This document shows positions 11,873 to 50,706 of a stretch of 64,000 nucleotides of DNA, piece after piece. The translations under genes and the position numbers were made by a program. The notes below the pieces were generated by a model that saw only the letters and a list, made by a program, of their open reading frames with translations, was not told the origin of the DNA and did not search any database. The stretch is from Candidatus Kapaibacterium sp. GTDB lineage: Bacteria > Bacteroidota > Ignavibacteria > Kapaibacteriales > NICIL-2. The stretch lies in contig BPHJ01000001.1 in the NCBI GenBank assembly GCA_026003475.1, positions 677,189 through 741,188 on the forward strand, read 5' to 3'. How positions within the stretch are numbered: the first letter of the stretch is position 1; every line of letters starts with the position of its first letter.

Positions 11873-14800
11873 CTATTGCGACAGAAGGATGGGCTGAGAT
11901 TTCACCGAACGCGGCGTACTCAAGCGGAGGAAGTACAGACCGCTTGGTAACACCCCACGAGGAATTGCATAGATGAATGTGCCGCGCTGATTCCCATCGG
12001 CGATGGATAGAACACTCTGTCCGAGCGGAGAATACAGTTCGAGCCGATACGGCATATCCTCGCCGATGGAAAGATCAATCACAAGATCGCCACTGGTTGT
12101 TTGGCTCGTGGTCATTGTTGTTGCTCCGACCAGGACAATTTGCCGAGCTTCCTGAGCGCAGTAGTAAGGAGTTGAGATAGTGCCATTTTCGGTCTCGACC
12201 ACCAGGCAAGGATAACTCGCCGCATTGAGCAGCGACGGTGTGATAGTGTGGCTCAGAAGCGAGTTGATATACGTTACCATTGGCACCTGAAGCTCGAGCG
12301 TTCCGCTTGTGATGCCCGCGGTGCTTGTGCCCTGGAGAATTGCGCCAGTGGGGAGATGTTGCACGGTCCACGTCCATCCATTCTGTTGGGGCTGGAAGCT
12401 GGCGTCGTCAATTTCAATGCCTGTGATTGGGTAGTTGAGACCGAGGCGAATTTGTTGGACCAGTGAACCTGCATCAGGCGCAGTTGTAAAGCGGATCAGA
12501 ATCATTTTAGATTGTCCCACATCAATCGTTGCTGATCCAACGCTGATGCGGAACTGCCGGGTTACACCAATTGCCGTCAGTGTGATGCGAGCTGGCTGGG
12601 GAAGCGCTGGAGAAGTGATGACCACGACGATCGTGCGCGTGCCTGCCGTTGGGGTGTACTGAACGGTGATTGTTGCTGTGCCGCCAGGTGGAATGGTGTC
12701 GTTGCTGGTGATAACGGTGAAGTCACCAACATCGCCTTGGGTCGAGACAGTGAAGCGTTCGGTCTGGCTTCCGGGGTTGGTTAGGGTAATGACCCGGGAC
12801 AAGGTTGACGCACACAAGAGCACTTCGCCAAAGTCTTCCGGTGTCGAAATCTGCAGTGATAAGCCAATACCACTCAGCGTTACGGTTGTTGTTACGCTTG
12901 GATCAAGTGATGGCCCAGCAGCAGCGTCGGAGGTGATGGTGACGGTACCGGTATTCATTCCTGCTTGTGCAGGACGGAATCGTACGGGAAGCACAAGGGA
13001 ATCGCCAATCGGGATCGTGTAGGGCAGCGCCGGGAGAGGAGCATCGTACCAGAAGCTTGGGTTATCAGGCGATGAAATGTTCTTGATCACAAGCGCTGCT
13101 GTTGTGCTTGTGTTGCGAATGACCAACGATTGAATCTCTGGGGAAAGTGTGCCTGTTGGCCATGGTTGGAATGTGACGTCGGGAGCAGAGATCTTGGGAA
13201 GAATTCCTGAGCCGCTTGTCTGAGCAGCAACGGGGTCGAGCAGACCATCCACGATGACCTCGACGACTTCAGAAAAATCGCCTTCAGTTTGTGGGGTGAA
13301 TTCCACGTCGAAGGTGATCTCCTGTTGCGCGGCAATGGTAATGGGAAGCGATGGAAGGTTCGTTAGGCGGAAGTGTGGGTTAGCTGCATCGCGGAGGCGG
13401 ATCTGCCGGATGACCCCATCGAGCGTGTCGTTGGTATTGCGAATGCGGGCTTGAAGTGTCGTTGTGGTTGCAACCCGCCGTGCCCCAAATTGGGGAACCG
13501 TCAGCGCCAACTGTGGCGCCAAACCAATGCCCGTGATTGCTTGTTGGCGGGTGCCACCGCACTTAGAGGGTAGCTCGATCTCGAACAATGTAGTAGCGAT
13601 ACCTGCGACGCTTGGTGCAAAAGTGATGTCAACGGTCAAGCATTGCCCCGGCGGAATATCGAACGGACAACCGGTTGAGTTGATCGTGCAACCCGTTGCT
13701 GGTATGGATACCGTGAATGCACTGGTGGGGTCGTTGGTAAGCTTAACTGTGCCCACTAAGGGTTCCGGACCATCGTTGCGAAGGAGGCAAAGTCCCGTCT
13801 GTTGGCGCGAGAGTCCAACGCTTGTGGTCAGCGTCATTGGTGGTGTGATGGTGAACTTGCACGGCGGCAACCCAATCCCGCTGACATTGACGGTTGCAGG
13901 GTTGCCACAGTTACCTTGCACGGTCAGCGTAGCAGTATGCTGTCCCTCAAAGGCAGGGAGGAACAATACTTCGATGCTGATACATTCGCCAGGTTTGAGG
14001 ACATAGTCTTTCCAGTTCGAAACGAGTTGGAATTGAGCTGCATTCGGTCCGCTCAAGCTCATTGTGGTAATGATGACGGGAATCTCGCCGTTGTTGCACA
14101 GCACACCGCTGAATACCTGGCTGGTACCATCACCAACAGCTATGGAGCCGACATCGAGCGAAGGCACCCGGAATTGCACCAGGGGCGATTGCACACGGAA
14201 GGTTGTGTCGCTGACGTCTTCCGAGCCAGGGACAAAGCCAAATTTGCGGACATAGACGTCGGTTCCCCCTCGGCTGGTGAGTCTGGTTGAGCCCACCTGG
14301 AGTTGGTTCTGGAATCCACCGGTTTCGTAGCGATTGCCGTTGTTGTCTTGGATAGTCGGTTTGGTGTAGGACGCCGGAAGATAGGTCCGCTGCAGGTTCG
14401 TAACGTTGAGTGTCGCTGTCGAGAAAACCGCCGTGAATGGATCGAAGCGGTTTTGATTGGCACTGGTGATGAACGTGCTTGGTGTCGTCGAAAATTGCAA
14501 GCGTCCTTTGAAACGACCATAGACATAGATCGAGCCGCTGGTGTATGCGATGGAGTCGACGTACACTTCGCAAGATGTGGTCGAGGAACCACCACCGACG
14601 GCGACTTGAACTGCGTTACCGCTCGAGTTATAGAGTGCCAGGTACGCATTGGTTACATCCAAGGTGCTTGCTCGTGTGACTGTCACACCACCGAACTGCG
14701 CCGTGGGGCTCCGGAATATGCCGGCAACGAACAAGTTGTCGTTGTTATCAATTGCCAGACAGCAACCTTCGTCGCTACGATTGCCACCGCCATTGCGGAT

Positions 14801-16501
14801 CCAGATGAGGTTTCCATCGCTATCGAAGCGAGCGACGAACATGTCGCTTTCGCCGTAGCTGGTCAGCGTTGTCCCGTTGACCGATGTACTGTTGGCAAAT
14901 GTGCCTGCTACGTGGACGTAGAGCTGACGCGAATCGAGCACAATCGAGCGACACGTATCGAAGGATGCACCCCCGATTTGCTGTGCCCAGACGTAGCCTG
15001 AATCCGGTGGTACTACGACTCGGATGCGATAGTTCTGTCCGGCCTGCGGAGGTTTCCAGCGATATGAGAGTCCGCTGATACGTTGGGCAATCGGTTGCCA
15101 GGTCGGATTGGGCTGATTCCCGTTGAGTGCGTAGTAGATGTCAACTCCTTGGGTGGGATCTACCCCAGCCCATCGAATGTCAACCGAGTCACACGTTGAA
15201 AAGAGTTCACCGCCGTTGGGAGAGAGGACAATCGCTTTCGAGACACCGCCAATAAGGGTAATGGATGTGGGACAGGGGTCACCTTCGAATGTTAGAGTAG
15301 CTTGGCGGTACTGCTTAGAACCCTGTTGCGTAAACTGGACCGTTGGTTCCCACACTTCACCTGGCTGCAGCGTAAATGGTGGTGTCCTGCCCGCCATATC
15401 CACGATGGTGTAATAGCCGGTCGGTACGATGGGGACACCGGTGATCTGCATCGGAGCACCGACGGCTTTGATGCTGAGTTTGACCGTTGTGGACGTACCA
15501 GGGTTTGGATTGCCGAAATACGCAACTTGTGGTGTAACCTCGAGCCGAGCAATGGACTGTGGTGGAGCGATGTACTGCAACGTTGCGTTCATCGGTGGCG
15601 TGGGACGAAGGAAGCTTACGGCAACATTCCGAATGCGATCGCGCTCAGTACAGCTCCAGGGAGCAATCCACTCCAGGTAGCACTTGTAGCGAATGATTGC
15701 TTCCAATGCAATCAGGCGGTAAATTTCCTTGAGTCGGTCTTTGGTGAAGACAGCAAATGTTTTTCCCCCTGTTGCACGCGCAATTCGATCGAGTTCGCCG
15801 TTCATGCTCAATCCAACCGTGATGGCATAGAACGTGATTGCTTCACGGCGGCAGCGTGCGATGATGGTATCCGTGCTTGGTTGGGTATCAGGCTGACCAT
15901 CGGTCAAAAAGACTATGATGCGGCGTACGTCGCGTGGTTTTTGGGAAAGGAGTTTTATCGCTCCAATGAGCGAATCGAGGAGGGGCGGATCGTACTTGGT
16001 CGAGCCTTGCGGGCGGATTCGTTCCATTGCATCAATGATCGGCTGTGCCGATGTGCGGAAATCGCTTTCCAAATAGGCTTCCCCCGCGAACGAGACCAGT
16101 GCAACCGACGACGGAGGCGTGAACGGAAATTGGGTAACAAATTCCCGTACACCTTCTTTCACCCAGTCCCAACGGGTTTCTGGTGGGTTTTGGTTGACCA
16201 CTTCCAACATCGAGGTGCTTTTATCCACGATGAGAACGATGTGTGCTGTTGGATCCTCAAGGCTTTGCTCGCACGATACCTGGAGCGTTGCCTGCATGGA
16301 GCGGCCATTCTCGCGGATGGAAAAATCGCTCGGTTGGAGATTCTGGTACTGGTTTCCCCATTGGTCGAAGGCGATGAATTGGGAACGGACGCGCGGGAAT
16401 GCGCTTACATCGGCATCAACGAGTGTGAATGATTGTCCCCACACCCCAGGGGTAAGCAGGACTAATCCAAGAACCCACACACAGAAGAAGAGTCGCTGCA
16501 T
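11873..16501 (-). CDS. large secreted VWA protein with ASH-like repeats and T9SS type A sorting domain
   Basis: A 1542-residue exported protein. Residues 1-22 are a signal peptide. A von Willebrand factor A domain follows, with the MIDAS motif DKSTS (93-97). After a mixed beta region, the second half is a series of immunoglobulin-like repeats of the choice-of-anchor D/ASH type, recognisable from motifs such as LDVGSIAVGDG, GECISIEVLFLPAFEGQHTA and LVLPVRFRPAQAGMNTGTVT. The last roughly 80 residues (LELYSPLGQSVLSIADGNQ through LPSGLYFLRL) match the C-terminal domain recognised by the type IX secretion system. The protein is likely surface-attached or released and may act in adhesion; its ligand is unknown. 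It is monocistronic, between two minus-strand units. Confidence 0.87.
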   Translation of the reverse strand: MQRLFFCVWVLGLVLLTPGVWGQSFTLVDADVSAFPRVRSQFIAFDQWGNQYQNLQPSDFSIRENGRSMQATLQVSCEQSLEDPTAHIVLIVDKSTSMLEVVNQNPPETRWDWVKEGVREFVTQFPFTPPSSVALVSFAGEAYLESDFRTSAQPIIDAMERIRPQGSTKYDPPLLDSLIGAIKLLSQKPRDVRRIIVFLTDGQPDTQPSTDTIIARCRREAITFYAITVGLSMNGELDRIARATGGKTFAVFTKDRLKEIYRLIALEAIIRYKCYLEWIAPWSCTERDRIRNVAVSFLRPTPPMNATLQYIAPPQSIARLEVTPQVAYFGNPNPGTSTTVKLSIKAVGAPMQITGVPIVPTGYYTIVDMAGRTPPFTLQPGEVWEPTVQFTQQGSKQYRQATLTFEGDPCPTSITLIGGVSKAIVLSPNGGELFSTCDSVDIRWAGVDPTQGVDIYYALNGNQPNPTWQPIAQRISGLSYRWKPPQAGQNYRIRVVVPPDSGYVWAQQIGGASFDTCRSIVLDSRQLYVHVAGTFANSTSVNGTTLTSYGESDMFVARFDSDGNLIWIRNGGGNRSDEGCCLAIDNNDNLFVAGIFRSPTAQFGGVTVTRASTLDVTNAYLALYNSSGNAVQVAVGGGSSTTSCEVYVDSIAYTSGSIYVYGRFKGRLQFSTTPSTFITSANQNRFDPFTAVFSTATLNVTNLQRTYLPASYTKPTIQDNNGNRYETGGFQNQLQVGSTRLTSRGGTDVYVRKFGFVPGSEDVSDTTFRVQSPLVQFRVPSLDVGSIAVGDGTSQVFSGVLCNNGEIPVIITTMSLSGPNAAQFQLVSNWKDYVLKPGECISIEVLFLPAFEGQHTATLTVQGNCGNPATVNVSGIGLPPCKFTITPPMTLTTSVGLSRQQTGLCLLRNDGPEPLVGTVKLTNDPTSAFTVSIPATGCTINSTGCPFDIPPGQCLTVDITFAPSVAGIATTLFEIELPSKCGGTRQQAITGIGLAPQLALTVPQFGARRVATTTTLQARIRNTNDTLDGVIRQIRLRDAANPHFRLTNLPSLPITIAAQQEITFDVEFTPQTEGDFSEVVEVIVDGLLDPVAAQTSGSGILPKISAPDVTFQPWPTGTLSPEIQSLVIRNTSTTAALVIKNISSPDNPSFWYDAPLPALPYTIPIGDSLVLPVRFRPAQAGMNTGTVTITSDAAAGPSLDPSVTTTVTLSGIGLSLQISTPEDFGEVLLCASTLSRVITLTNPGSQTERFTVSTQGDVGDFTVITSNDTIPPGGTATITVQYTPTAGTRTIVVVITSPALPQPARITLTAIGVTRQFRISVGSATIDVGQSKMILIRFTTAPDAGSLVQQIRLGLNYPITGIEIDDASFQPQQNGWTWTVQHLPTGAILQGTSTAGITSGTLELQVPMVTYINSLLSHTITPSLLNAASYPCLVVETENGTISTPYYCAQEARQIVLVGATTMTTSQTTSGDLVIDLSIGEDMPYRLELYSPLGQSVLSIADGNQRGTFIYAIPRGVLPSGLYFLRLSTPRSVKSQPILLSQ

Positions 16502-37786: not shown

Positions 37787-39835
37787 ATGAAGCGCTTGAT
37801 TTGGTCTTTCGCGGTGGGACTCATTGCCGTCGTTGCAACGGCTGCTGGGGGTAATGGCGAGTTACGCTTGCAACCACCGGCTGATGGATTCCAACCACCA
37901 CTGTCACCGCGGGTTTGGCAATGCATGCCGCATGAGCAGTACGTGCCAGGGCCGCGTATCCAGCAGGCAAGTTATACCGTTTTCGATTCGTTGTTCAATG
38001 CATTCTCGTACTACGGGAGCAATCAAACCTGCGTGCTGTGGGAGCCGCAGACACAGACATTTTTGACGATCAAACGTGGGGCGCTACCACCATCGCCGGA
38101 TGTGACTGATAATGGGAACAACATTTTCCTTGTTTGGACCACCGATCAAGGCCAATCCTGGCGACGTGCTGGTCCTATCCTGGAGGGGACAAAAGGCGTT
38201 CTTGCCCCGAACGGTGCTCCCCGCTACCCGGCGTTAGCGCTGCTCTATGGTGACGCGCAAATTTCAACTTTGGATGCATCAGCCGTTGCGTACTTCTCGC
38301 CGGTGACTGATGGTTCAAACTGGAGTGGTCTTGCATGTGGCTACATTCCAATGACAGCAGGCTCGGTGCCGAATAATCTCTTCCTCGATAAGTATGATGA
38401 TGCAGCGCCGGATGGGAACCAGTATCTCCACTCCTATGGCACAACAGTGAATACAACGTCTTTCTCCCTCAATTCCGATGCAGTCTATGCGTTTGGTATG
38501 CTCTCCCTTTTCCCATCGCCGGCAGGGTCTGCACCAACAGCGCAGAACAATAACATTGGTCTTATCAAGGTGGATGTTTTCGGAATTGATCAGTTCATGC
38601 CGATGATTCCACCGCCACTCCGCTCGACCAACTTTGCTGATCCACAAAATGCAAATTCCCGTACCAGTTCGGAGATCGCTGTGGATATTGATGCAGAACA
38701 CAATCTCTACGCAGGGGTTTTCGGCCGATTCACAGCATCGGGGGATAATGATCCAAACCGCACGTCATTCGGCGTTGCAAAGTCAACCGATGGTGGTGCC
38801 ACCTGGAGTGAGCTCAATATTCTCCCGATGAGTGTCATTCAAGCTTATGCAGCCCAGGAAGGCGCTAATCCCGATTCATCTGGATTTACCTTTAGCTGGG
38901 CGTGGAACAACACCACCACCCGCGTTACTGCTGCAAAGGATTTCGTCGTGACTGGCGTGGATCAGTACAGCTTCGCGGCTCAATTCATGCTTGTTTCCGG
39001 CGGGCAAATTACCGGCATCCACTATGTTGAAGTGTACTACGCCAACGGTCAGTGGGGTATTCGCAAGATCGCTGATGCTACTCTATTTGAAGCGAACCAA
39101 CAGTGGGCCTTTGATAATGGCAGCGAGATATCGCCATCCCAACTTGGCTGCGAGTTGCAACTGTGCCGGACGGCCGACTATAGCACCGTTCTATTCAAGA
39201 CACTCGAAGCAAAGGTTGTGACGGTCAACAATATGGATTTTATCACCACCGACGTGGTTGTTGCCAAACGTTCTGTTGATGCGGGCCAGTGGGATGCTCT
39301 CCGCAATGCAACCGAGAGTCCTATCCTGGATCGCATTACATGGCTGCCAAAGGTTGTGCCGAATGGCTTGACCGCAGTACCGCTGTTGACGGTGCAGTCC
39401 GCAAATCGCAGCGGGACCGAATGGGATTATCTGTGGTCCAATCAGTTCTTGCTTGCCTCCGCCTCGCAAAGCCCAACCCCGGATGAAGTGTTGCGGTATC
39501 GCCAGTACGTGACGTACTCGCAGTTCGATTACGCAAGCCTTCCAGCCTGGAGTTCAGGCTCAAGTGTTGAATCGAATCCATCGCGCTCAACGATCACGCT
39601 ATCGCCGAATCCCACAAGTGAAAGCGTAACCGTTGCTCTTGATGCAGACGGCACTTCCCGTGGAGCAACACTTGCGCTTGTCAACATGCTTGGTGTGGTG
39701 GTCAAGTATGTAACGCTGACACCGGGTGAGTCCACCTACACGTTCACTGTTACGGATCTACCGAGCGGCGTCTATGCAGTCCGTTATCATTCGGGCGAGA
39801 CGACCGCAACGGCGACCATACGAATTGTTCGGTAA
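37787..39835 (+). CDS. secreted protein with Asp-box (BNR) repeats and T9SS type A sorting domain
   Basis: A 682-residue exported protein. Residues 1-19 are a signal peptide. Two Asp-box-like repeats are visible (VWTTDQGQSWRRAG and AKSTDGGATWSELN), which suggests a beta-propeller of the sialidase/BNR type. No sialidase catalytic residues are evident. The last 85 residues (ITLSPNPTSESVTVALDADG through DLPSGVYAVRYHSGE) match the T9SS type A sorting domain. Start ATG 37787 has GGAG nine bases upstream. It precedes the TonB-receptor gene on the same strand, 21 bases apart, and may be exported through the same surface system. Confidence 0.82.
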   Translation: MKRLIWSFAVGLIAVVATAAGGNGELRLQPPADGFQPPLSPRVWQCMPHEQYVPGPRIQQASYTVFDSLFNAFSYYGSNQTCVLWEPQTQTFLTIKRGALPPSPDVTDNGNNIFLVWTTDQGQSWRRAGPILEGTKGVLAPNGAPRYPALALLYGDAQISTLDASAVAYFSPVTDGSNWSGLACGYIPMTAGSVPNNLFLDKYDDAAPDGNQYLHSYGTTVNTTSFSLNSDAVYAFGMLSLFPSPAGSAPTAQNNNIGLIKVDVFGIDQFMPMIPPPLRSTNFADPQNANSRTSSEIAVDIDAEHNLYAGVFGRFTASGDNDPNRTSFGVAKSTDGGATWSELNILPMSVIQAYAAQEGANPDSSGFTFSWAWNNTTTRVTAAKDFVVTGVDQYSFAAQFMLVSGGQITGIHYVEVYYANGQWGIRKIADATLFEANQQWAFDNGSEISPSQLGCELQLCRTADYSTVLFKTLEAKVVTVNNMDFITTDVVVAKRSVDAGQWDALRNATESPILDRITWLPKVVPNGLTAVPLLTVQSANRSGTEWDYLWSNQFLLASASQSPTPDEVLRYRQYVTYSQFDYASLPAWSSGSSVESNPSRSTITLSPNPTSESVTVALDADGTSRGATLALVNMLGVVVKYVTLTPGESTYTFTVTDLPSGVYAVRYHSGETTATATIRIVR

Positions 39836-39856: not shown

Positions 39857-42800
39857 ATGAAAATGTTTCTCTGTGTGCTAAGTATTGCTCTTGGTACAAC
39901 AGCACTCTGGGCGGGCACCAATGGAAACCTCACTGGTACGGTCAAAGACAAAGACGGCAAGCCCGTCCAAGGGGCTACCATTCGTGTGATGGGAACTGTT
40001 CGAGGTGCAAAAGCCAAGAGCAATGGTGAGTACCTGATCATCAATATTCCGGCAGGTACTTACACAATCAAGGTCACTGCCGTTGGGTACAAGGAAAAAA
40101 ATATCGAGGCTTCCATCCACGCCGATCAAACGACGACCCTCAACATCGTGCTCGAAAGTGCTGATGTGATGGGGAAGGAAGTTGTTGTGGAGTCCGCCCG
40201 TTTGAAGATGGTGGACGATAAAGCAGTTGGTATCACGCGTGGGGTGTCGGGTGACCAAATTCAGCGCACCACGCGGGAAACAGCCCAGCAGATTGCGCTC
40301 ACCCAGGCTGGCGTGCTTAGTACTGGTGGTGGGCTCTCGATCCGCGGTAGCCGTCCAACAGACACGCAAGTTCGTATTGATGGGCAAGATGTTTCAGACC
40401 AAATTACTGGTGGGTTCGGCGAAGCTGCTGCGGCTGCAGGGATTCAGTATGCTCCGACAGCGTCAGCATTTGCGACTGAAGAAGTGCAAGTCCTCACCGG
40501 GAACTTCAGCGCACAGTATGGAAATGCTATGGGTGGAGTTGTAAACCAAGTAGTCAAGACCGGAAAAACCGATGGGTATGAAGGCTTTCTCCGCTGGCGA
40601 ACCGACGTTCCATTCCTGTTCGGTACGGCAGGAAACGGATTGAAAGCGCTCGCACAGCAACAAGGGACGTACGAATTCGGCGTTGGTGGTCCGATACCGC
40701 TGCTTCAGCGCTCAACGTTCTTCGTCTCGACCAAATACGTCACCGAACAGTACCGTAATGCCGGGTTAGACGTTCGCGACCGTGCGGGCAACAGCATCGG
40801 ACAGTTGCCCGACAATACCTCGGCAGTACGCAACATCACCGGGCGACTTGCGTTCCAGTTTACCGACGACATCAAGCTCATCGTGGGCGGAACATGGGGA
40901 TTGACCAGTCTGGCGTTTGGAAACTGGGCATGGCTGTATGCCAACGCTCCCGCGATGCAACTGCGACCGAACCCCTCGACAGGACTCAACGATACCGTTG
41001 TGCTTTCTACGGTTCCAGAGCGCGTCGCGAAGGTTAATGCACTCAACAATTTCATCTACAGCTACTTTGCCCGCATTAACCACATCCTGAGCGAAACCAG
41101 TTTCTACGAGTTGACTCTCTCGTTCAACAACAACATCTCCGAAGACGGACGCCGCCGTATCTCACTGGGCGAAGGTTCGCTCATGCAAAATGGTTCGATC
41201 GTTGACCCATCGAAGGTATCAACGGCAATGCCAACCGACAACTTTTTCACGGGTTGGGATATTCTCAAACCTGCTGATGATTTTGTGCTCGATCGGTCGC
41301 GAGGAATTCAAGTTCCCAGGAACGGCTCACAGGGTGATAAAATCGTTGACTACTACGCTGAAACCTTCGGGACTGTTTATCTGGACAACGATCCTAACCG
41401 TCCGTTCTACACCCTAGTACCGAGCAACCTGACCGGATACGTCGAGGGCGGTGCTGATGTACAGGCATCGCTCAATCCGTATGGAATTACGGGCGCATTT
41501 TACACGCGTGGCAACGACGAGGGCGCAGTCAATCGTGGGTTCGAGTTCAAGAGTGCAAGCTTTTGGCAGATTGATGGGAACTATCAGCTCAACATCTTTG
41601 CCGGTGAATTCCGTCACTTGTTCAAGGCGGGAATCGATGCCCGCTACTACACTGTTCGTCGTTACTCCAATAGCCTTCCCTGGACCGGCAACCCCTTCTA
41701 CGATGTGTTCACCGACCAGTGGGGTGGAGACATCTACAGCCTCACCGAAGAGGAGCGTGCCGAAGGAAGCAAGCCGAAGAATGCAATCATTTCCGCGTTC
41801 TACGTGGAAGACCAGATTTCCTACAAGAACATCAACATCAATCCCGGCCTGCGGGTTGACATCTTCGACCCCAGCACAACCTTCCGAACCAATCCTGCAG
41901 ATGCAACATCCCCAGCTCGTACCACCGCTTCGATCAAGGTACAGCTCAATCCACGCTTGTACATCTCCTATCCCGTCGGGGAGCGGTCGTTCTTCTCGAT
42001 TGCCTACGGTTGGTACACTCAAGTGCCGCGTTTTGCATTGCTCTACAACAACACCGTTTCGGCGCTGACTCGGGGGAATAACATCGTCGGTAATCCCGAT
42101 CTTCGTCCAGAGAATGCCAAGCAGTACAATGTTGCCTACAACGTCCAGCTTTCGGACGACTATGCGCTCGACGTCCAAGCATTCTACAAGGACATCTACA
42201 GCTTGACCGGGCTTTCCTACATTCCGGACAATCGCTTCCCCTATGCTCTGTATTCCAACGGTGAGTACGGAAATGCCCGCGGTATCGAAATCACCTTCCG
42301 GAAGCGATTGACGGGTAACATTGGTTTCAATCTAAACTACACGCTCTCGTATGCACAAGGGACCTCCTCAAGCTCTGGTGCGAACTACAACGTCATTATT
42401 GCCGGTGCTGATCCCTACACCGGCGTCCGCCAATTTCCGCTGACAGAGTACCCTCTCGACTATGATCGTCGCCACCGATTCAATTACATTATTGATTTTG
42501 TCTGGGGCAAGGGCGAAGGTCCTTCCATCGGTGGTATCCACTTCCTGGAAAACGTTGCACTCAACTTTACCGGTCTGTTCCAAACAGGTGCGCCCTACAC
42601 ACGGCTCGATTTGCGTGGCAATCAGATCGGGGATTACAATGCCGAACGGCAGCCCTCGGTCTGGACAATGGACATGCGCTTGCAACGGACACTGCCACTT
42701 CGCGATCTCTTCGGCGATTCATTCGGCACCTCTGAGCTGATTTTCTTCCTCGATGTATTCAACTTACCAAATCTTACCGGTCCGATCTCGGTATATCCAC

Positions 42801-43096
42801 GCACGGCTGATCCCGATAACGACGGTGTCAGCTTGTATCGCCAGCCAGGGGACTTTCCAGCTGGACCGTGGTATGCAAAGGCCGATCCAGCTAATCCCTC
42901 AACGATTGCACAAAGCCAGTACGATCGCACTGGCCGGCGCCTCTATACAGAAACCGCAGACTTCAATCGCGATGGCATCGTGACGCAGCAGGAGCAGTAC
43001 CAATCGTATTTGCAGTATGTCAACGATGCCATGTCGCGCCGTCCGCGCTACCAGTTTCCGCGGACAGTGTTTTTCGGTGTGATGCTCCGTTTCTAA
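39857..43096 (+). CDS. TonB-dependent receptor-type outer-membrane protein with carboxypeptidase-like N-terminal domain
   Basis: A 1079-residue outer-membrane barrel. Residues 1-19 are a signal peptide. An Ig-like carboxypeptidase-regulatory domain follows (GNLTGTVKDKDGKPVQGATI and PAGTYTIKVTAVGYKEKNIE). The plug domain carries LSIRGSRPTDTQVRIDGQDV and FSAQYGNAMGGVVNQVVKTG. The barrel occupies the C-terminal two thirds and ends in Phe (GVMLRF). A TonB box is not obvious. Such proteins import ligands or, in SusC-like forms, pair with a surface partner; the ligand is unknown. Near residues 1035-1046 there is an EF-hand-like loop (DFNRDGIVTQQE). It leads a four-gene set with a giant secreted protein, PorV-like and GWxTD proteins. 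Confidence 0.88.
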   Translation: MKMFLCVLSIALGTTALWAGTNGNLTGTVKDKDGKPVQGATIRVMGTVRGAKAKSNGEYLIINIPAGTYTIKVTAVGYKEKNIEASIHADQTTTLNIVLESADVMGKEVVVESARLKMVDDKAVGITRGVSGDQIQRTTRETAQQIALTQAGVLSTGGGLSIRGSRPTDTQVRIDGQDVSDQITGGFGEAAAAAGIQYAPTASAFATEEVQVLTGNFSAQYGNAMGGVVNQVVKTGKTDGYEGFLRWRTDVPFLFGTAGNGLKALAQQQGTYEFGVGGPIPLLQRSTFFVSTKYVTEQYRNAGLDVRDRAGNSIGQLPDNTSAVRNITGRLAFQFTDDIKLIVGGTWGLTSLAFGNWAWLYANAPAMQLRPNPSTGLNDTVVLSTVPERVAKVNALNNFIYSYFARINHILSETSFYELTLSFNNNISEDGRRRISLGEGSLMQNGSIVDPSKVSTAMPTDNFFTGWDILKPADDFVLDRSRGIQVPRNGSQGDKIVDYYAETFGTVYLDNDPNRPFYTLVPSNLTGYVEGGADVQASLNPYGITGAFYTRGNDEGAVNRGFEFKSASFWQIDGNYQLNIFAGEFRHLFKAGIDARYYTVRRYSNSLPWTGNPFYDVFTDQWGGDIYSLTEEERAEGSKPKNAIISAFYVEDQISYKNININPGLRVDIFDPSTTFRTNPADATSPARTTASIKVQLNPRLYISYPVGERSFFSIAYGWYTQVPRFALLYNNTVSALTRGNNIVGNPDLRPENAKQYNVAYNVQLSDDYALDVQAFYKDIYSLTGLSYIPDNRFPYALYSNGEYGNARGIEITFRKRLTGNIGFNLNYTLSYAQGTSSSSGANYNVIIAGADPYTGVRQFPLTEYPLDYDRRHRFNYIIDFVWGKGEGPSIGGIHFLENVALNFTGLFQTGAPYTRLDLRGNQIGDYNAERQPSVWTMDMRLQRTLPLRDLFGDSFGTSELIFFLDVFNLPNLTGPISVYPRTADPDNDGVSLYRQPGDFPAGPWYAKADPANPSTIAQSQYDRTGRRLYTETADFNRDGIVTQQEQYQSYLQYVNDAMSRRPRYQFPRTVFFGVMLRF

Positions 43097-43132
43097 CCCT
43101 GATAGCAGTTGAACCTTTCTTTGATTGACCAG

Positions 43133-46100
43133 ATGCGATTCCGTCTTTTTGCCCTCGGGTTGCTTAGCAGCATTGTGGTGCTGTCTGTTCCGGCGATGGC
43201 AGCCAAGGATATAGACCGTGCAAAGTACAAGGATCGAAAGGGTCCCGCTGTTCAAGCTGCACAGTTCAATGATCTGCGCCGGAACACCATCAGCAAGTTC
43301 GATTTTTATGTAACCAATTACGGGATCCTGTTCTTGAATGTCGCACGGAACCAAGGCGGCGGATTCTGGCCGCGTGGTTCCACCAACGAGTATGCCTTTG
43401 GTGGTGGCGTTTGGTTCGGGGCAATCAAGATGATCAACGGCGAGCCGCGCAAGATGTGCGTTATTGGTTACAACCCGAACTCAGGGATTTCGTGGATGAC
43501 TCCCGGCTCGATTGATGACGGTGACCTTGGGGATCGTTCTCAAGAAGCGATCCTCAAAAACCGCATCTACATGTCCACAGATTTCGTTCGTGTGACTGGT
43601 GCTCCGCGGAATCCTGCCGACGGTCCAAACTGGCCAATCTGGGATGCAAATCCCAATGATACAATGGTCAACATTGCTACCATCAAGAACCGCTCGCGAT
43701 ACGTTGGCTACTATATCAACGACACTACTGGGCGGAATTACACGACATACCCCAAAGGTCCGGCGTTCATTTCGCAAGAGGACATTTTCTGCGTGTACAG
43801 GGATACCGATCTTCGCGCCTACGAGATCGGAGAAGACCAAGCGCGAGCACTCGGGTATCCTTTGCGTATTCAGGTTGAACAAACATTCTACACCTGGGGA
43901 TTTGGTGAGTACGGACACTTTGTGTTTGTGCGCTTCAACATCATCAATCGCTCGCCCGATACGCTCTATCAATGCTGGATGTCTGCTGCGTGCGATTTCG
44001 ATCTTGCAGCTTTTCCTAACTACGCAGCCGGTGCGGCTAACGACCGTGTGAGCTACTACTTCCAGGATACCACGTTGAATTTGGCCTATCAATGGAGCAA
44101 TACCGATCGTGGGGAACGGGGGAAGGGATTCGGATACGTGGGTATGACCTTTCTGGAAAGCCCCGCCGTTGATGAATCGTTTTTCATCCGCAAGGACAAG
44201 AGCTATTACCCACTGAACGAGCAGTTGGGATTGCGAACATTCCGCAATTGGGTTATCGCCAACGATCCCAACACCGATGTCCAGCGCTATGATTTCATGG
44301 CAGCAGGCACCCGTGATGGTGACACTGGCCCCGGCGACAAGCGTTTCTTGATGGCAACCGGTCCGTTCAACATGCGACCCAATGATACCGCACGCATTGT
44401 CGTTGGTGTGATTTTGGCTCCACCGGTCAAAGAGGAAGCCGATGGGACAGAAGAAGACTTAGTGAATTTGGTGCGTCGGACTCGCTTTGCACAGCGGGTC
44501 TATGACAATGGCTTTGCCGCACCGCAACCGCCGGAAGCACCCAAGGTAAGCTGGGAGCCGCTCAACCACGCCATCATTGTCAAGTGGGACACAACCAGCT
44601 ACGCTTCCTACGACCGCGAAGAGAAGGGAATGGATGTGATGGGATTCCGCTTGTTCCGCTCTCGCGTTCCAACGCAGGATACTTTCGATGTGGACTTCCG
44701 TTCTCCTTCGGCGGATTATCCTGGCGGGCGCAGCCCGTTCGGTTGGAAACTTATCGCTGAATGGCGCACCCCCTCACCATTCTGGACAACCGCGATCCTG
44801 TCCGATAGCAGCGACGTCAACAGCGCTCGCTATCCGTGGATTCGCGTTTTTCCCAGAACGGCAAAGGCAAATATTCGAACGCTCTATCCCGGCTTTGTGT
44901 CGGCTACGGACGTCCTCAATGATAGCATCGTGATCGTTCGCCGAATTCCTAACACGACTACTCCGCCATGGCGGTCATTCTGGTCGGGGATCATTCCACA
45001 AGGAGCTATCAGCAGCCCCAATCGGTACGATACTCTCACGCTTGGGAAGGTCATCGTACTCCCGAATGGTCAGATCCCACCCTCTCCAACGAGCACAACC
45101 GATACGACCACAATGAATCAAGCCATGGCGAGTATCTGGTCGCAGACCGCTCGTGGCACTGTCCGGATTCAGTGGATGGCTGATGATTGGGTTGATGCAC
45201 CGTGGGCTCGGCAGATTATCCGGAACTACCTCGATAGCGTCACGAACAATCGTTCCTTCCTCGATGTCGGCGATGATAACCAAGATGGTGTCATCTCGCA
45301 GGACGAAGACCTTCGCCGCCGTGAAGAAATCCTCAATAATGTTGACTACTACTACCGCGTCCTTGCCTTAGACGAAGGTGATTACCTGCAGGGTACACCG
45401 ATCAAGAATAGCGTTGCTATTGACAACATCAACGTTATCCAGGCATTCGCACTTGCCAACGGTCCACATCGCGAGCCGAGCGTTACCGTGACCGAGGACC
45501 GAGACCGACTCGGTGGCCTCTACAATTTCCGCTTGCTCCCCAAAGATGCCCAACGCTTTGCGCAGCTGTATGGCGGGCATGAAATCGAGCTGGAGTTCCA
45601 ACCTGCAGCATCTGCGACGTCGTTCTATCCATGCATTGACACGATTTGGAATAATACGCTCAGCATGCTCAAGGGCCTCTACGGCAATCGTCTCATCGTA
45701 CGCGATAAAACGACAGGCCGACAGTTAGGCGAGTACTTCGTGCTCTACGAACCGGCTGACTGCTTGTTCGACAATTTCTTCTCGGATGTTGCCATGGTGT
45801 TCGTTTCGCCCAACACCGTTTCGCAAATCAATTCGCTTTGCGAGCAGGCACAGAATGATCCAAATAGTTTTGTCCATCCCGACAACACCGATGTCACCTA
45901 CCGTGGCGGTACCTGGACCACAGACAAACCATGCTCTGCTAATACCCGAACAATCGAAGGGACTTTCGCGCTCTCGTTCGATTACTTCATCGAGCAGTAT
46001 GGTGGTATCATCCGACCCTATCGAATTGAAAAACTCAGCGGGACGGCAAACACCTTCCTCGAGTTTCGTCCGTTCCGACGCACAGACATTCCCAAGCTCG

Positions 46101-47230
46101 AGCAGGTCGCAATCAACTACCAAACTGGCCTGTACGAGCGCTTCAATAATGGCGCAGCTCGATACGAAGTCGAATTCCTTCCGGGTGGAGTCGAAACGAT
46201 AACGACCCAATTCCTCCGCGTCCGTGGTCTCGGACAGGTGGATACGCTTACCAAGACCTTCGATGTATCGTACCTCAACGTTCGAGTTCGGAACACGCTC
46301 ACCTACAATCGCCCAACCCCACAGGGTGATTCGGTACAGGTGGCCTATCCGGTTGATCTGCCCCATACGTCTGTATCCCTACCTGTTGACCTGGTTGCGT
46401 ACAGCCAGACGGGAACATCGGATGTGTATGTTTATCCGCATCCACGGGTGGTTCCCATCGGTTCATTCAACTTGAGTGCGTATGCCTGGCTCAACGGTCG
46501 CTACACCAAAGCCAACTTCACGACCAAAGAGGCTGTCACGCAACGGAACCAACAAGCTGGTTGTGCAAACAGAGGATGCCCAGTCGGTACGCAAGGGCGA
46601 TACTATCTTTCGACAATTACTCCCGAGGGCGATACGATTGACTTCACGCACGCTCTTGTGGTTGATGGTGGTACGTTCTGGCTGGACTTTCCCGGAAAAG
46701 GTGGGCGGCAAGGTACCGCTGCAGGGCGTCAAGTTGCTCTTCCACCCGATAGTTCATCTTCGACAGAAGACTTCAAAGCCGGTGACAAGATTCTCGTTGA
46801 AATCATGGGCGGACCATTCGGGCTGCCAATGCCAGGAGCAAAAGTCTCGTTCAAGGTTAGCGATGTTACCATACCCCAAGATCAACTCACCGATAGTGAC
46901 ATTGACCAAGTGCTGATTGTCCCGAATCCCTACGTGATCACACATGTTGGGCAAAAGTCCTCGTACGATGCGAAGATTTACTTTACCCGACTGCCGAAGG
47001 AATGTACGATCAAAATCTACACGGTTGCTGGCGATCTGATCCGCACGATTCATCACGTTGATCAAGATGGCACCTATCGGTATGGGATGGATGTGTGGAA
47101 TCTGCTCAGCGATAATTTGCAGCGTGCCGTTTCGCAAGGTTTGATCGCTGTGATCGAAACGCCAAACGGCGCGCAGACAGTCAAGAAATTTGCCATCGTC
47201 GTCGGTGGCGCACGCATTTTGGGTCGTTAA
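43133..47230 (+). CDS. giant exported protein, GWxTD/PorV cluster partner
   Basis: A 1365-residue exported protein with signal peptide (about 1-24; an in-frame TTG 24 bases upstream is less likely). The N-terminal 450 residues have no family I recognise. A fibronectin type III-like segment follows (APKVSWEPLNHAIIVKWDTT region, about 470-490), then an EF-hand/dockerin-like loop near residues 711-725 (DDNQDGVISQDE). The C-terminal 100 residues (PNPYVITHVGQKSSYDAKIY through WNLLSDNLQRAVSQG) resemble a FlgD/T9SS-like Ig fold. It starts 36 bases after the TonB-receptor gene and precedes the PorV-like gene. It is probably the surface partner or cargo of this receptor (inference). Confidence 0.7.
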   Translation: MRFRLFALGLLSSIVVLSVPAMAAKDIDRAKYKDRKGPAVQAAQFNDLRRNTISKFDFYVTNYGILFLNVARNQGGGFWPRGSTNEYAFGGGVWFGAIKMINGEPRKMCVIGYNPNSGISWMTPGSIDDGDLGDRSQEAILKNRIYMSTDFVRVTGAPRNPADGPNWPIWDANPNDTMVNIATIKNRSRYVGYYINDTTGRNYTTYPKGPAFISQEDIFCVYRDTDLRAYEIGEDQARALGYPLRIQVEQTFYTWGFGEYGHFVFVRFNIINRSPDTLYQCWMSAACDFDLAAFPNYAAGAANDRVSYYFQDTTLNLAYQWSNTDRGERGKGFGYVGMTFLESPAVDESFFIRKDKSYYPLNEQLGLRTFRNWVIANDPNTDVQRYDFMAAGTRDGDTGPGDKRFLMATGPFNMRPNDTARIVVGVILAPPVKEEADGTEEDLVNLVRRTRFAQRVYDNGFAAPQPPEAPKVSWEPLNHAIIVKWDTTSYASYDREEKGMDVMGFRLFRSRVPTQDTFDVDFRSPSADYPGGRSPFGWKLIAEWRTPSPFWTTAILSDSSDVNSARYPWIRVFPRTAKANIRTLYPGFVSATDVLNDSIVIVRRIPNTTTPPWRSFWSGIIPQGAISSPNRYDTLTLGKVIVLPNGQIPPSPTSTTDTTTMNQAMASIWSQTARGTVRIQWMADDWVDAPWARQIIRNYLDSVTNNRSFLDVGDDNQDGVISQDEDLRRREEILNNVDYYYRVLALDEGDYLQGTPIKNSVAIDNINVIQAFALANGPHREPSVTVTEDRDRLGGLYNFRLLPKDAQRFAQLYGGHEIELEFQPAASATSFYPCIDTIWNNTLSMLKGLYGNRLIVRDKTTGRQLGEYFVLYEPADCLFDNFFSDVAMVFVSPNTVSQINSLCEQAQNDPNSFVHPDNTDVTYRGGTWTTDKPCSANTRTIEGTFALSFDYFIEQYGGIIRPYRIEKLSGTANTFLEFRPFRRTDIPKLEQVAINYQTGLYERFNNGAARYEVEFLPGGVETITTQFLRVRGLGQVDTLTKTFDVSYLNVRVRNTLTYNRPTPQGDSVQVAYPVDLPHTSVSLPVDLVAYSQTGTSDVYVYPHPRVVPIGSFNLSAYAWLNGRYTKANFTTKEAVTQRNQQAGCANRGCPVGTQGRYYLSTITPEGDTIDFTHALVVDGGTFWLDFPGKGGRQGTAAGRQVALPPDSSSSTEDFKAGDKILVEIMGGPFGLPMPGAKVSFKVSDVTIPQDQLTDSDIDQVLIVPNPYVITHVGQKSSYDAKIYFTRLPKECTIKIYTVAGDLIRTIHHVDQDGTYRYGMDVWNLLSDNLQRAVSQGLIAVIETPNGAQTVKKFAIVVGGARILGR

Positions 47231-47253
47231 CCACTGTTGGAGTTGACGGAAAA

Positions 47254-48327
47254 ATGAAACACATTGCACGAATGCTTGCAATCACGATCGCTGGTGCTGG
47301 ACTGGCGATGGCTCAGCAACAGGGCACGCAAGGTTCCTCGGCTGGCGAGTTCCGTAAGGTCGGTGCTGCTGGCGCGCAGTTTCTCAAGATTGGCGTGGGT
47401 GCCCGCGCAAATGGTATGGCGGGTGCTTTCTCTGCCATTGCCAACGATCCGACGGCGTTGTTCTACAACAACGCTGGCATCGTTGACATTGATGGCTACA
47501 TGGGCAACTTCACCTATACCCAGTGGTTCGGCGGTTACTCCCACAACTTTATCGCAGGCATCATTCCTATCAGCGAGAAGTATCGCGCTGGACTGTCGGT
47601 CACTTCCTTCACGAGCGGACCGATTCCATTTACGACTGTGGAGAACGAGAATCGCCTCAATACCACCTACAGCATTACTGATGTTGCCATCGGCGGGACA
47701 CTAGCAGGACAACTAACCGATCAGTTTTCCTTTGGTGTTACCGTCAAGTATGTCCAGAATGGCATCGGTGGGATGAGTGCAAGCGGAATTCTTGCCGACG
47801 TGGGTACGATGTATCGTTTTCGTGGCGTGCGGCTTGGGTTTTCGGTGAGCAATCTTGGTCCACAGCTCCAGTATTCCGGTGCGGACCTGAACTTCCGGAC
47901 TGATCTCATCCGCGAACTCCAGTATCAGCAGGTTGACGCCTCCTTCTTGGTCAATCCGTACAATGCACCCATTTCCCTAAAGGCGGGACTTGTTGCGGAC
48001 TTGACCTCGGAACTATTAGGCATGTACGAATCCGATCCCAACCTTGCAGTCAACAAAGAACGCGAGCATCGGTGGCTACTGGCGCTCGATTTTGAGACGC
48101 TCTCGGATGTCCCCGAGCAACTTGCCATCGGAACCGAGTACACATGGAAAGACCTGCTTTCGCTTCGTGCCGGATATCGTTTCAATCAAAGCGCGTTTGG
48201 ATTGAGTGGTGGTGTCGGCATCCGTTACATTGGCAGTGGATTCGATGGTATGCTCGACTACTCAATCCAACCAACAACGACGCTTGGTATTGTCAATCGC
48301 TTTTCGCTGACGCTGCGGCTGAATTGA
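47254..48327 (+). CDS. PorV/PorQ-family outer-membrane protein
   Basis: A 357-residue protein with signal peptide (about 1-20). The PorV/PorQ family hallmark is near the N-terminus: FLKIGVGARANGMAGAFSAI followed by ANDPTALFYNNAGI, and the rest is amphipathic beta strands ending in LTLRLN, as in a 14-strand FadL-like barrel. PorV collects T9SS cargo at the outer membrane and hands it to the attachment complex. This copy sits in the receptor/GWxTD cluster rather than beside other por genes, so it could serve this cluster specifically. It could also be a paralogue of the main PorV. Confidence 0.82.
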   Translation: MKHIARMLAITIAGAGLAMAQQQGTQGSSAGEFRKVGAAGAQFLKIGVGARANGMAGAFSAIANDPTALFYNNAGIVDIDGYMGNFTYTQWFGGYSHNFIAGIIPISEKYRAGLSVTSFTSGPIPFTTVENENRLNTTYSITDVAIGGTLAGQLTDQFSFGVTVKYVQNGIGGMSASGILADVGTMYRFRGVRLGFSVSNLGPQLQYSGADLNFRTDLIRELQYQQVDASFLVNPYNAPISLKAGLVADLTSELLGMYESDPNLAVNKEREHRWLLALDFETLSDVPEQLAIGTEYTWKDLLSLRAGYRFNQSAFGLSGGVGIRYIGSGFDGMLDYSIQPTTTLGIVNRFSLTLRLN

Positions 48328-48394
48328 TTCGACATCGAAGCGATACCGTCGCACATTCCAACGCGAGATAGAGCAATGCTCGCGCAGACTGACA

Positions 48395-49828
48395 ATGATG
48401 ATGGCACCTCCGCTCATTATTGCGATTGGGCTACTGCTGACACTGCAGGGCAGTCCACTTGCCGCCCGTGATGAATTTCCGATGGCAGTGTCGGTGGATC
48501 AGTTTCGCGTTGACTCTACTCGAACGAGGGTAGAAATCGCATACGCCATTGCAGATACACAACTGGTATTCCGTCCTACAGCGGAGAAGAACGTTGTGCA
48601 GGCTGCCCTGGAATTGAATATTACGATTTCCAGTGCACAGCGGGCAGATTCCATTCGTGTCATCCTCGAAAGCAACAAGCCGCGTGGGCACCAGCAACCG
48701 TCGTTGCTGGTGGGAAAACGGGTGTTTATCCTTCCTTCGGATCATTACACGATTGGGATGAGGATTCGAGATGCATATCGAGAGCGCAGCGCTCAACTCG
48801 AGCGGCGAATTCCTCTTGTTGTTCGAGCATTCGAATCACAGACACTCAGTACAAGCAGCATCCAACTTGCACAGTGGATCGCCCATGCCGATACTCTTGA
48901 TCCTCGACAGGTCAACCCCTCGTTTATCAAGAATGGATTGTATATCACGCCCAACCCAACGGCAGTGTATGAGGGAACTGCCCCGATGCTCTATGCCTAC
49001 ACGGAGCTGTACAACCTGGACCAGTGCCAATGCGACAGCATCGAATTGCACTACCACATCCTCGATGCTGCACTCAACGAGGTATTCGATCTGCGCTATC
49101 GTCGCCCTGTGATAGGACATCAACAGGCAGAAGTTGTATCGGTCTCGCTCGATGGTCTTGCAACAGGGGCGTACTATCTGGCGCTGGGGATTGAAAGTGC
49201 TGATCGCGGTGAGCTCCAGCTTGCACGGAAGCAGTTTTACCTGGTCAATCCCGAACTTCCACCCGTGCAACCCCGAGCACTAAGCGAAGACGAACTGTTC
49301 CTACAAAGTCCATTTGCAACGATGGACGATAGGGAGCTTGCCATCGAGGCAGCATCTGCCCGATTAGCTGCGCGTCCGGCTGAACTTGAACCGTATGACC
49401 AATTGACCACGACGGCTGCACGACGCCGATTCTTGTTTCGCTTTTGGCTTCAACGCGATCCGGACCCAACCACACCCGTCAACGAGCGCTACGAAGAATT
49501 CCGCCGTGCCCGTGAGTATGCAGCCAAGTTCTATCGCACTGCGCGGTATCCGGAGGGATGGAATAGTGACCGTGGGCGCGTGCTCCTCAAGTATGGTTTT
49601 CCCACGCAAATTGATCGTGCATACTTCAACATGGATGGAGCGCATCCGCACGAAATTTGGCGTTACGACAACGTCCAGGGTGGGGTCATCTTTGTGTTCG
49701 TTGATCAACAGGGCACAGAAAATTTCGTGCTGGTGCATTCGACGGCGCTCAATGAAATCCGGAACGAAAACTGGTATCGGCAGTTTGCGATGCCAAATTA
49801 CCTCGACCCCAATTCTCCGATTCGATAA
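48395..49828 (+). CDS. GWxTD-domain protein
   Basis: A 477-residue exported protein. An N-terminal signal (about 1-24) precedes a beta-rich domain, and the C-terminal part is the GWxTD domain. This domain is defined by FLFRFWLQRDPDPTTPVNER and by EGWNSDRGRVLLKYGFPTQI, where the usual Thr of the GWxTD motif is Ser here (GWNSD). The function of the domain is not established; it is typical of Chlorobi, Ignavibacteria and some other phyla. It closes the receptor-giant-PorV-GWxTD unit. The downstream acyltransferase begins eight bases later and may be co-transcribed. Confidence 0.82.
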   Translation: MMMAPPLIIAIGLLLTLQGSPLAARDEFPMAVSVDQFRVDSTRTRVEIAYAIADTQLVFRPTAEKNVVQAALELNITISSAQRADSIRVILESNKPRGHQQPSLLVGKRVFILPSDHYTIGMRIRDAYRERSAQLERRIPLVVRAFESQTLSTSSIQLAQWIAHADTLDPRQVNPSFIKNGLYITPNPTAVYEGTAPMLYAYTELYNLDQCQCDSIELHYHILDAALNEVFDLRYRRPVIGHQQAEVVSVSLDGLATGAYYLALGIESADRGELQLARKQFYLVNPELPPVQPRALSEDELFLQSPFATMDDRELAIEAASARLAARPAELEPYDQLTTTAARRRFLFRFWLQRDPDPTTPVNERYEEFRRAREYAAKFYRTARYPEGWNSDRGRVLLKYGFPTQIDRAYFNMDGAHPHEIWRYDNVQGGVIFVFVDQQGTENFVLVHSTALNEIRNENWYRQFAMPNYLDPNSPIR

Positions 49829-49836
49829 CTGGCAGT

Positions 49837-50706
49837 ATGCTGGAACTCGTACTTCGGGGCGTAGGGTGGCTCGCCTGGCAAGCGGGGATGACTGGGCGAC
49901 GAGTACTGGCAGAGCTCATTGGAACCATCCTTTACATTGCTGAACCCTCTCGGCGACGCTTGACGATCGCAAACCTTCGTCGTGCCTATCCAGAGTTGAG
50001 GCATCGCCAGCTTTCTGACCTTGCACGAGAAAGCTATCGCAATCTGGCGACGGTATTTCTGGAATTGTTGGCAACACCCTACGTGGCACCTTCTCAGATC
50101 CATCGCATGTTTCGTTTCAGAAATCCGCATCTTGTTCAGCACAAACTGACGGAAGGGAAGGGCGTTATCCTTGTGAGCGCACATCTTGCAAATTGGGAAT
50201 GGTCGGCGTTAGCAGCAACAATCGAGTTTGGTAAGCCTCTACTGGTCGTTGTGAAGGAGCAACGTAATCCTCGCTTCAACGCATGGCTGGACCGCGTCCG
50301 CCGCAGCACAGGGAATGAAACAGTACCGATGTTCCGAGCAGCGAGACGAATGCTCCAATGGCTCAAGACTGGCGGCATTGTAGCTCTCTTGGGGGACCAA
50401 GCTGCCGAGCCGACAAGCGATGTATTCGTGCCGCTCTTTGGTCAGCTTGCAGCTACATACAAAGCACCCGTCGTCCTTGCCCGACGCAGCGGGGCAGCAC
50501 TTGTTTTTGCATATTGCCGCCGTGCTACTGATGGATCCTACGACGTGTTCTTCGAAACACTCCCCGAAGCAAATGACGAGCAGATCCCCGTCGAGGAGGT
50601 GGTCGCACAGTATAACCGCTTGCTCGAAACAGCAGTGCGCACTGCACCGGAGCAATGGGTCTGGCAACATCACCGTTGGAAATATCAACCACCCCAGTCA
50701 CGATGA
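49837..50706 (+). CDS. LpxL/HtrB-like lysophospholipid/lipid A acyltransferase
   Basis: A 289-residue acyltransferase of the LpxL/HtrB family. An N-terminal hydrophobic segment (about 22-35) anchors it at the inner membrane. The active-site motif is H116-L-A-N-W-E121 (HxxxxE) in VSAHLANWEWSALAAT. The sequences PLLVVVKEQRNPRFNAWLDR and GGIVALLGDQAAEPTSDVFV are typical. It would add a secondary acyl chain to lipid A, or act on a related lipid. A related SDR gene overlaps its stop by four bases. The gene lies eight bases after the GWxTD gene. Confidence 0.86.
   Translation: MLELVLRGVGWLAWQAGMTGRRVLAELIGTILYIAEPSRRRLTIANLRRAYPELRHRQLSDLARESYRNLATVFLELLATPYVAPSQIHRMFRFRNPHLVQHKLTEGKGVILVSAHLANWEWSALAATIEFGKPLLVVVKEQRNPRFNAWLDRVRRSTGNETVPMFRAARRMLQWLKTGGIVALLGDQAAEPTSDVFVPLFGQLAATYKAPVVLARRSGAALVFAYCRRATDGSYDVFFETLPEANDEQIPVEEVVAQYNRLLETAVRTAPEQWVWQHHRWKYQPPQSR

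Follow-up and report, generated by a model that had tools for sequence, protein, structure and literature searches.

A conserved receptor, giant protein and PorV-family barrel triad suggests a surface complex built without SusD in hot-spring Kapaibacteria and their relatives

Two components of the T9SS, PorU and PorZ, retain the CTD and are tethered to PorV and PorQ, respectively (PMC5562754), and type A CTDs bind loops of PorV inside SprA (PMC10994853). Cargo with a type B CTD and PorP-like proteins are known as cognate cargo-shuttle gene pairs (PMC12618676), and in the Bacteroidota BAM a FadL-type barrel bears a surface canopy (PMC12611786, PMC12578637). The locus described here lies in the window, that is the whole stretch of 64,000 nucleotides that was analysed, within a single-contig genome of 2.16 Mb, and its core encodes a TonB-dependent receptor (TBDR), a large exported protein (GIANT) and a barrel of the PorV/PorQ family (PORV). 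Although each of these parts belongs to or resembles known families, their combination is apparently undescribed; the literature searched, outside which lay most subscription journals and preprints, contained no account of the triad, and it likewise yielded no paper on GWxTD proteins or on PorV with a TonB-dependent receptor in Ignavibacteria. We propose, with moderate confidence, that the three products form an outer-membrane complex in which GIANT would be exported by the T9SS, held by PORV and seated on TBDR, working in the manner of SusCD.

The layout given by the first-pass annotation, comprising four genes on the + strand, separated by gaps of 36, 23 and 67 bases and including a protein of 1365 residues, was recovered in full among the open reading frames (Table 1). 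The length of GIANT follows from the ATG at 43133, while the longest open reading frame begins at a TTG at 43109; the reading frames of PORV and of the GWxTD protein encode 357 and 477 aa, respectively. Counts of promoters and terminators within the operon were equal to, or under, those in shuffled sequences. Elsewhere in the window, a reading frame of 1542 aa on the - strand (11873-16501), with a T9SS sorting-domain match of 23.5 bits at genome positions 689082-689267, represents another large T9SS cargo.

Table 1. Genes and predicted domains of the locus, in window positions.
Feature	Position	Strand	Basis
Exported protein upstream of TBDR, bearing a BNR-like repeat and a canonical T9SS type A CTD (associated)	37787..39835	+	TIGR04183, 30 bits, cut-off 23
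TBDR (TonB-dependent receptor), 1079 aa, signal peptide	39857..43096	+	Pfam Plug and CarbopepD_reg_2; orthologue directly upstream of GIANT in 81/81 loci
TonB-box-like motif EVVVESA at the junction of the TBDR N-terminal domain and plug	40178..40198	+	Orthologue alignment, motif only
GIANT, exported, 1365 aa, without Pfam family	43133..47230	+	ORF; 50/58 good genomes of the order; two AlphaFold2 models
GIANT residues 43-463, predicted beta-supersandwich	43259..44521	+	VIA-align structural match
GIANT residues 464-775, predicted split fibronectin type III (Fn3) domain with large insert	44522..45457	+	VIA-align; invariant residues
GIANT residues 1248-1357, predicted T9SS-type CTD of the PorZ/PorU kind	46874..47203	+	VIA-align, hhalign, distant-homologue profiles
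PORV, outer-membrane barrel of the PorV/PorQ family, probably dedicated	47254..48327	+	NF033709; 79/79 loci; separate clade
GWxTD-domain protein (associated, non-core)	48395..49828	+	TIGR04514; adjoins triad in 56/73 loci; paralogues elsewhere in genomes
Lipid A biosynthesis acyltransferase, LpxL/HtrB type (associated)	49837..50706	+	PF03279, 2e-41; adjoining in 54/71 loci

The relatives compared were metagenome assemblies of Kapabacteria/Kapaibacterium and Ignavibacteria, from which loci were fetched by GIANT alone and their neighbours then identified by independent profiles, giving 82 distinct loci. TBDR lies directly upstream of GIANT and on the same strand in all 81 loci whose sequence reaches far enough, and PORV follows GIANT immediately in all 79 that could be tested, mostly with intergenic gaps of fewer than 120 bases, and across loci from many genera in which protein identity is about 25-45%. 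The order of the triad is kept far beyond chance. Conservation of gene order across relatives had been set beforehand as a test that might refute a dedicated module, and that claim survives it, with divergent triads found in the class and the phylum. GIANT is present in 50 of the 58 good genomes of the order, as a single copy; two families of the class, f13 and f19, have it at full length too. In the other orders of the class it is shorter or split, and TBDR, GIANT and PORV are contiguous in 14 of 20 stretches, and two further stretches keep all three clustered, with two intervening genes. Stretches from other classes of the phylum have the triad genes all adjacent in 15 of 20 cases, and one more is truncated where its contig ends; the order TBDR-PORV-GIANT occurs once among them, as does a doubling of the PORV-GIANT pair. 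Distant GIANT matches are partial, covering the central part and the C-terminal domain, often at 80-250 bits. Locus L215 (8702-17707) shows a tandem duplication, with two PORV-GIANT pairs behind a single TBDR, and in family f21 of the class (L080, L167, L180) the homology to GIANT is spread over separate reading frames of ~580-690 aa around a shorter TBDR, possibly an ancestral or split form.

Because adjacency within the triad is invariant in the testable loci, while that of the GWxTD gene extends to 56 of 73 and that of the lipid A acyltransferase to 54 of 71, the conserved unit is a three-gene core of TBDR, GIANT and PORV, to which the latter two genes are frequent but optional companions. 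The GWxTD protein is readily recognised (TIGR04514, 71.7 bits against a cut-off of 28), and occurs in the genomes of all 61 relatives, mostly in three copies, including the family without GIANT. The unit of four proteins that had been supposed therefore gives way to one of three, as 17 of 73 triads have no adjoining GWxTD gene, yet GWxTD proteins occur in every genome, triad-less ones included; incomplete adjacency, together with these paralogues, rules it out as a core subunit. The gene upstream of TBDR and the downstream acyltransferase are part of the conserved neighbourhood about as much as the GWxTD gene: a homologue of the upstream T9SS cargo, or another CTD protein, is present in 51 of 67 loci, many of these matches resting on the CTD alone. 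The GWxTD gene and the acyltransferase (window 48395-50706) themselves constitute a conserved pair, and this pairing may tell more of GWxTD function, in lipid A or outer-membrane lipid handling, than does the triad.

Linkage of the acyltransferase is also among the observations that favour the main rival to an uptake complex, namely a machine for envelope biogenesis, in which the triad would be a surface assembly or LPS-handling complex and not an importer, with the TBDR barrel as a scaffold or TonB-driven motor. Such a machine could be modelled on the PorU/PorV/PorQ/PorZ attachment complex, or on the Bacteroidota BAM, where the canopy is borne by a FadL-type barrel (PMC12611786, PMC12578637), and the CTD of GIANT is nearest to those of PorZ and PorU, both members of the attachment complex. 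Further, GIANT occurs once per genome and almost universally in the order, which suits a general envelope role as well as one uptake task. Weighing against it, a whole family (f7) lacks GIANT yet has SprA, genomes of other classes carry numerous divergent copies that resemble substrate-specific expansion, and TBDR retains both a plug and a TonB-box-like motif; we regard envelope biogenesis as unlikely.

GIANT belongs to no recognised family, as was first remarked (zero Pfam matches at E<=1), and a sequence search against solved structures also returned zero matches. Its architecture was approached through two overlapping AlphaFold2 models based on 80-82 homologues (mean pLDDT 85.5 and 85.1), in which folds were assigned to residues 43-775 and 1248-1357. 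The N-domain (residues 43-463) is predicted to be a beta-supersandwich like the N-terminal domains of GH15, GH94 and GH116 enzymes, with VIA-align Z scores up to 19.5 (against 1lf6, Z 18.7 and 8% identity across 231 residues at 2.8 A) and identities of 8-10% overall; in the model, Fn3 and other beta domains occupy the place of the GH catalytic helical barrel. The predicted Fn3 domain (residues 464-775; Z about 8-9 to Fn3 domains) has an insert ending in a DxGDDNxDG calcium-site-like loop, in which D711, G713 and D714 are invariant in 82 rows. Although the supersandwich invites the thought that GIANT binds glycans, we consider this rather doubtful, because YidC shares the fold. A canonical Por_Secre_tail scores above cut-off in short paralogues of the N-domain, and the N-domain is therefore a T9SS cargo module. 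Those at L075-L078, stand-alone proteins of 515-585 aa that often lie in tandem, mostly end in a canonical T9SS CTD, have no PorV or TBDR alongside and make up a separate cargo family.

At the other end of GIANT, among the matches listed, the CTDs of PorZ (5m11; Z 10.4, 3.0 A, 91 residues, 23% identity) and PorU (6za2_B; Z 9.3) are the top structural matches of its CTD by VIA-align, and hhalign pairs this domain with the T9SS CTDs of its own genome, including that of its PorU, at a probability of 90-91%. The PorZ tail NF052228 is the first-ranked profile for distant GIANT homologues, seven of eight matching it (best 4.6e-8), and two of eight lie above the cut-off of the T9SS sorting domain TIGR04183. 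The CTD of the window GIANT had no match to TIGR04183 or PF18962 at E<=1, and the NCBIfam PorZ model matched it weakly and in the tail only (E 0.007, 14.8 bits against the NF052228 cut-off of 260); as a whole protein GIANT falls under the cut-offs of PorZ (NF052228) and PorU (NF033707), and its N-terminal parts match neither profile. By fold, by hhalign and by its distant homologues, then, GIANT combines the signal peptide, which is without a lipobox cysteine, with the T9SS-type CTD that together characterise T9SS cargo. That weak sequence match of the window CTD, and the weak matches of FlgD models to Ig-like CTDs of this kind, would be expected if the likeness reflected a shared Ig-like (FlgD-type) fold, in which case GIANT would be periplasmic or secreted and the genes an old operon without a complex. 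Given that PorZ and PorU rank first by both fold and profile, and that the N-domain paralogues carry canonical T9SS signals, we judge this explanation highly improbable.

PORV lies above the PorV/PorQ-family model NF033709 (158 bits, cut-off 90, 4e-46) and below the canonical PorV equivalog NF033710 (65.9 bits against 250), and against solved structures it matches only PorV. Four PorV-family genes are carried by the genome, of which the top-scoring one (286.7 on the family model) lies beside PorU and is the canonical PorV. A tree built from 61 sequences sets the PORVs of triads in the order, class and phylum apart from canonical PorV and from two other paralogues with a support of 0.97, and PORV is therefore likely a dedicated partner of GIANT rather than a general shuttle. 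Together with the CTD, this dedicated barrel supports the earlier suggestion that the giant protein is T9SS cargo held by the PorV-type protein, and with good confidence we hold that GIANT would be exported and docked on PORV. Another PorV-family paralogue (G000:C1:1002419-1003606) lies directly behind a weak T9SS CTD match, with which it may form a dedicated pair of cargo and anchor that has no TBDR.

TBDR matches CarbopepD_reg_2 (8e-20) and, above cut-off, Plug PF07715 (7e-7), and its length and partial matches to receptor families point to a C-terminal barrel. Most TBDR orthologue rows have a similar hydrophobic xVxVxA motif (EVVVxA-like) at the same place before the plug, a likeness of motif only, and the genome possesses TonB and 16 plug matches. 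Of all pairs, the protein distances of TBDR and GIANT co-vary most (r 0.964; partial 0.70 given PORV, GWxTD and acyltransferase), with the GWxTD protein and acyltransferase of the same loci serving as controls, both of which co-vary less; as genes of one operon share history, this is no proof of contact. Gene order and co-variation nonetheless make an association of GIANT and PORV with TBDR fairly probable. The same evidence bears on the alternative that GIANT and PORV are a self-contained cargo and anchor pair, for example an adhesin, part of a surface layer or a glycan-binding protein, with which TBDR is merely co-expressed. Precedent exists in the cognate pairs of type B CTDs and PorP-like proteins (PMC12618676), and shorter N-domain paralogues do bear a T9SS CTD without an adjoining TBDR or PorV, but TBDR adjacency (81/81) is as invariant as that of PORV, and TBDR-GIANT co-variation is the strongest of any pair, and we consider a pair without the receptor improbable. 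Returning to the complex of three, the likening to a SusCD pair made at first reading remains plausible in function, but not by descent of the parts: GIANT has no SusD match and an all-beta N-domain, which together speak against a SusD protein, and a tail like those of PorZ and PorU, and TBDR lies far under the SusC/RagA cut-off (TIGR04056, 53.6 bits against 368).

The T9SS itself is ubiquitous in this setting, with SprA in 61 of 61 relatives, and the genome of the window also holds T9SS CTD proteins, PorU, canonical PorV, SprA and TonB; no SusD match was found in it. In family f7 (G013, G021, G028 and others), the whole of which lacks GIANT, 3-8 SusD matches per genome are present in 10 of 10 genomes, against any SusD at all in only 7 of 51 other genomes of the order. 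Since f7 is one clade, and its pattern perhaps one event, this is only a hint. Loss of the T9SS as the cause of the missing GIANT is ruled out, as SprA is present there, and strict replacement of SusD by the triad was likewise rejected, as 59 of 76 genomes with GIANT-type matches in other classes also have SusD. Genomes of f7 also mostly have just one GWxTD match, and in GIANT, SusD and GWxTD alike the remainder of the order shows the opposite.

In the mechanism that we infer, which extends to the surface location of GIANT, retention of its CTD, its contact with TBDR, its action as a lid and its ligand, GIANT would be exported by Sec and then by the T9SS through SprA. Its CTD would escape release by the sortase and dock permanently on PORV, as PorZ does on PorQ and PorU on PorV, and PORV with its GIANT cargo would associate with TBDR. 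There, GIANT may cover or feed the receptor as a lid or ligand-feeding partner, its N-domain being of a kind that helps glycosidases to hold glycans, and TBDR would move the ligand inward with energy from TonB. The role of the SusD lipoprotein would thereby be taken by a protein that the T9SS delivers and that has a barrel of its own as anchor. Our results suggest that these hot-spring bacteria assemble a surface complex for uptake in which the usual SusD lipoprotein has no part, and whose gene order persists over much of the Bacteroidota. More tentatively, and with somewhat less conviction than the complex itself, we suggest that a lid delivered by the T9SS and held for good by a PorV-family barrel is a third architecture of TonB-dependent surface complexes, extending over Kapabacteria, Ignavibacteria and further classes of Bacteroidota, with many copies per genome, and joining two energised systems. 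If so, T9SS parts would serve to build complexes for TonB-dependent uptake in lineages with few or no SusD proteins, and many PorV/PorQ-family genes without an assigned role would encode the dedicated anchors. Numerous unnamed giant proteins would thereby gain a directly testable function, and a link would be made between two outer-membrane systems commonly treated in isolation.

Like SusC/SusD (RagA/RagB), the triad has a TonB-dependent receptor with an N-terminal CarbopepD_reg_2 domain encoded beside a large, putatively surface-exposed partner; unlike them, its partner has an all-beta N-domain, no lipobox and a T9SS-type CTD replacing the lipid anchor, its third gene encodes a PorV barrel, and its receptor is under the SusC cut-off. 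With the PorU-PorV and PorZ-PorQ attachment complex it shares a CTD-bearing, putatively surface-exposed protein and a barrel of the PorV/PorQ family, whereas the N-terminal parts of GIANT are unlike PorU and PorZ, a TBDR always accompanies the triad, and the triad is separate from the genome's own PorU-PorV pair. The pairing of one cargo with one dedicated, adjoining outer-membrane partner recalls type B CTD cargo and PorP/SprF-like shuttles (PMC12618676), from which the triad differs in its PorV-family barrel, PorZ/PorU-like CTD and TBDR. A FadL-type barrel bearing a surface-exposed protein beside another barrel, as proposed for the triad, is found in the Bacteroidota BAM with BamG (FadL-type) and the BamH canopy (PMC12611786), but the triad is without BamA, GIANT is not a lipoprotein, and among solved structures PORV matches PorV, not BamG. 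The best reading, drawn by analogy, is that the triad would work like both SusCD and PorZ-PorQ while belonging to neither.
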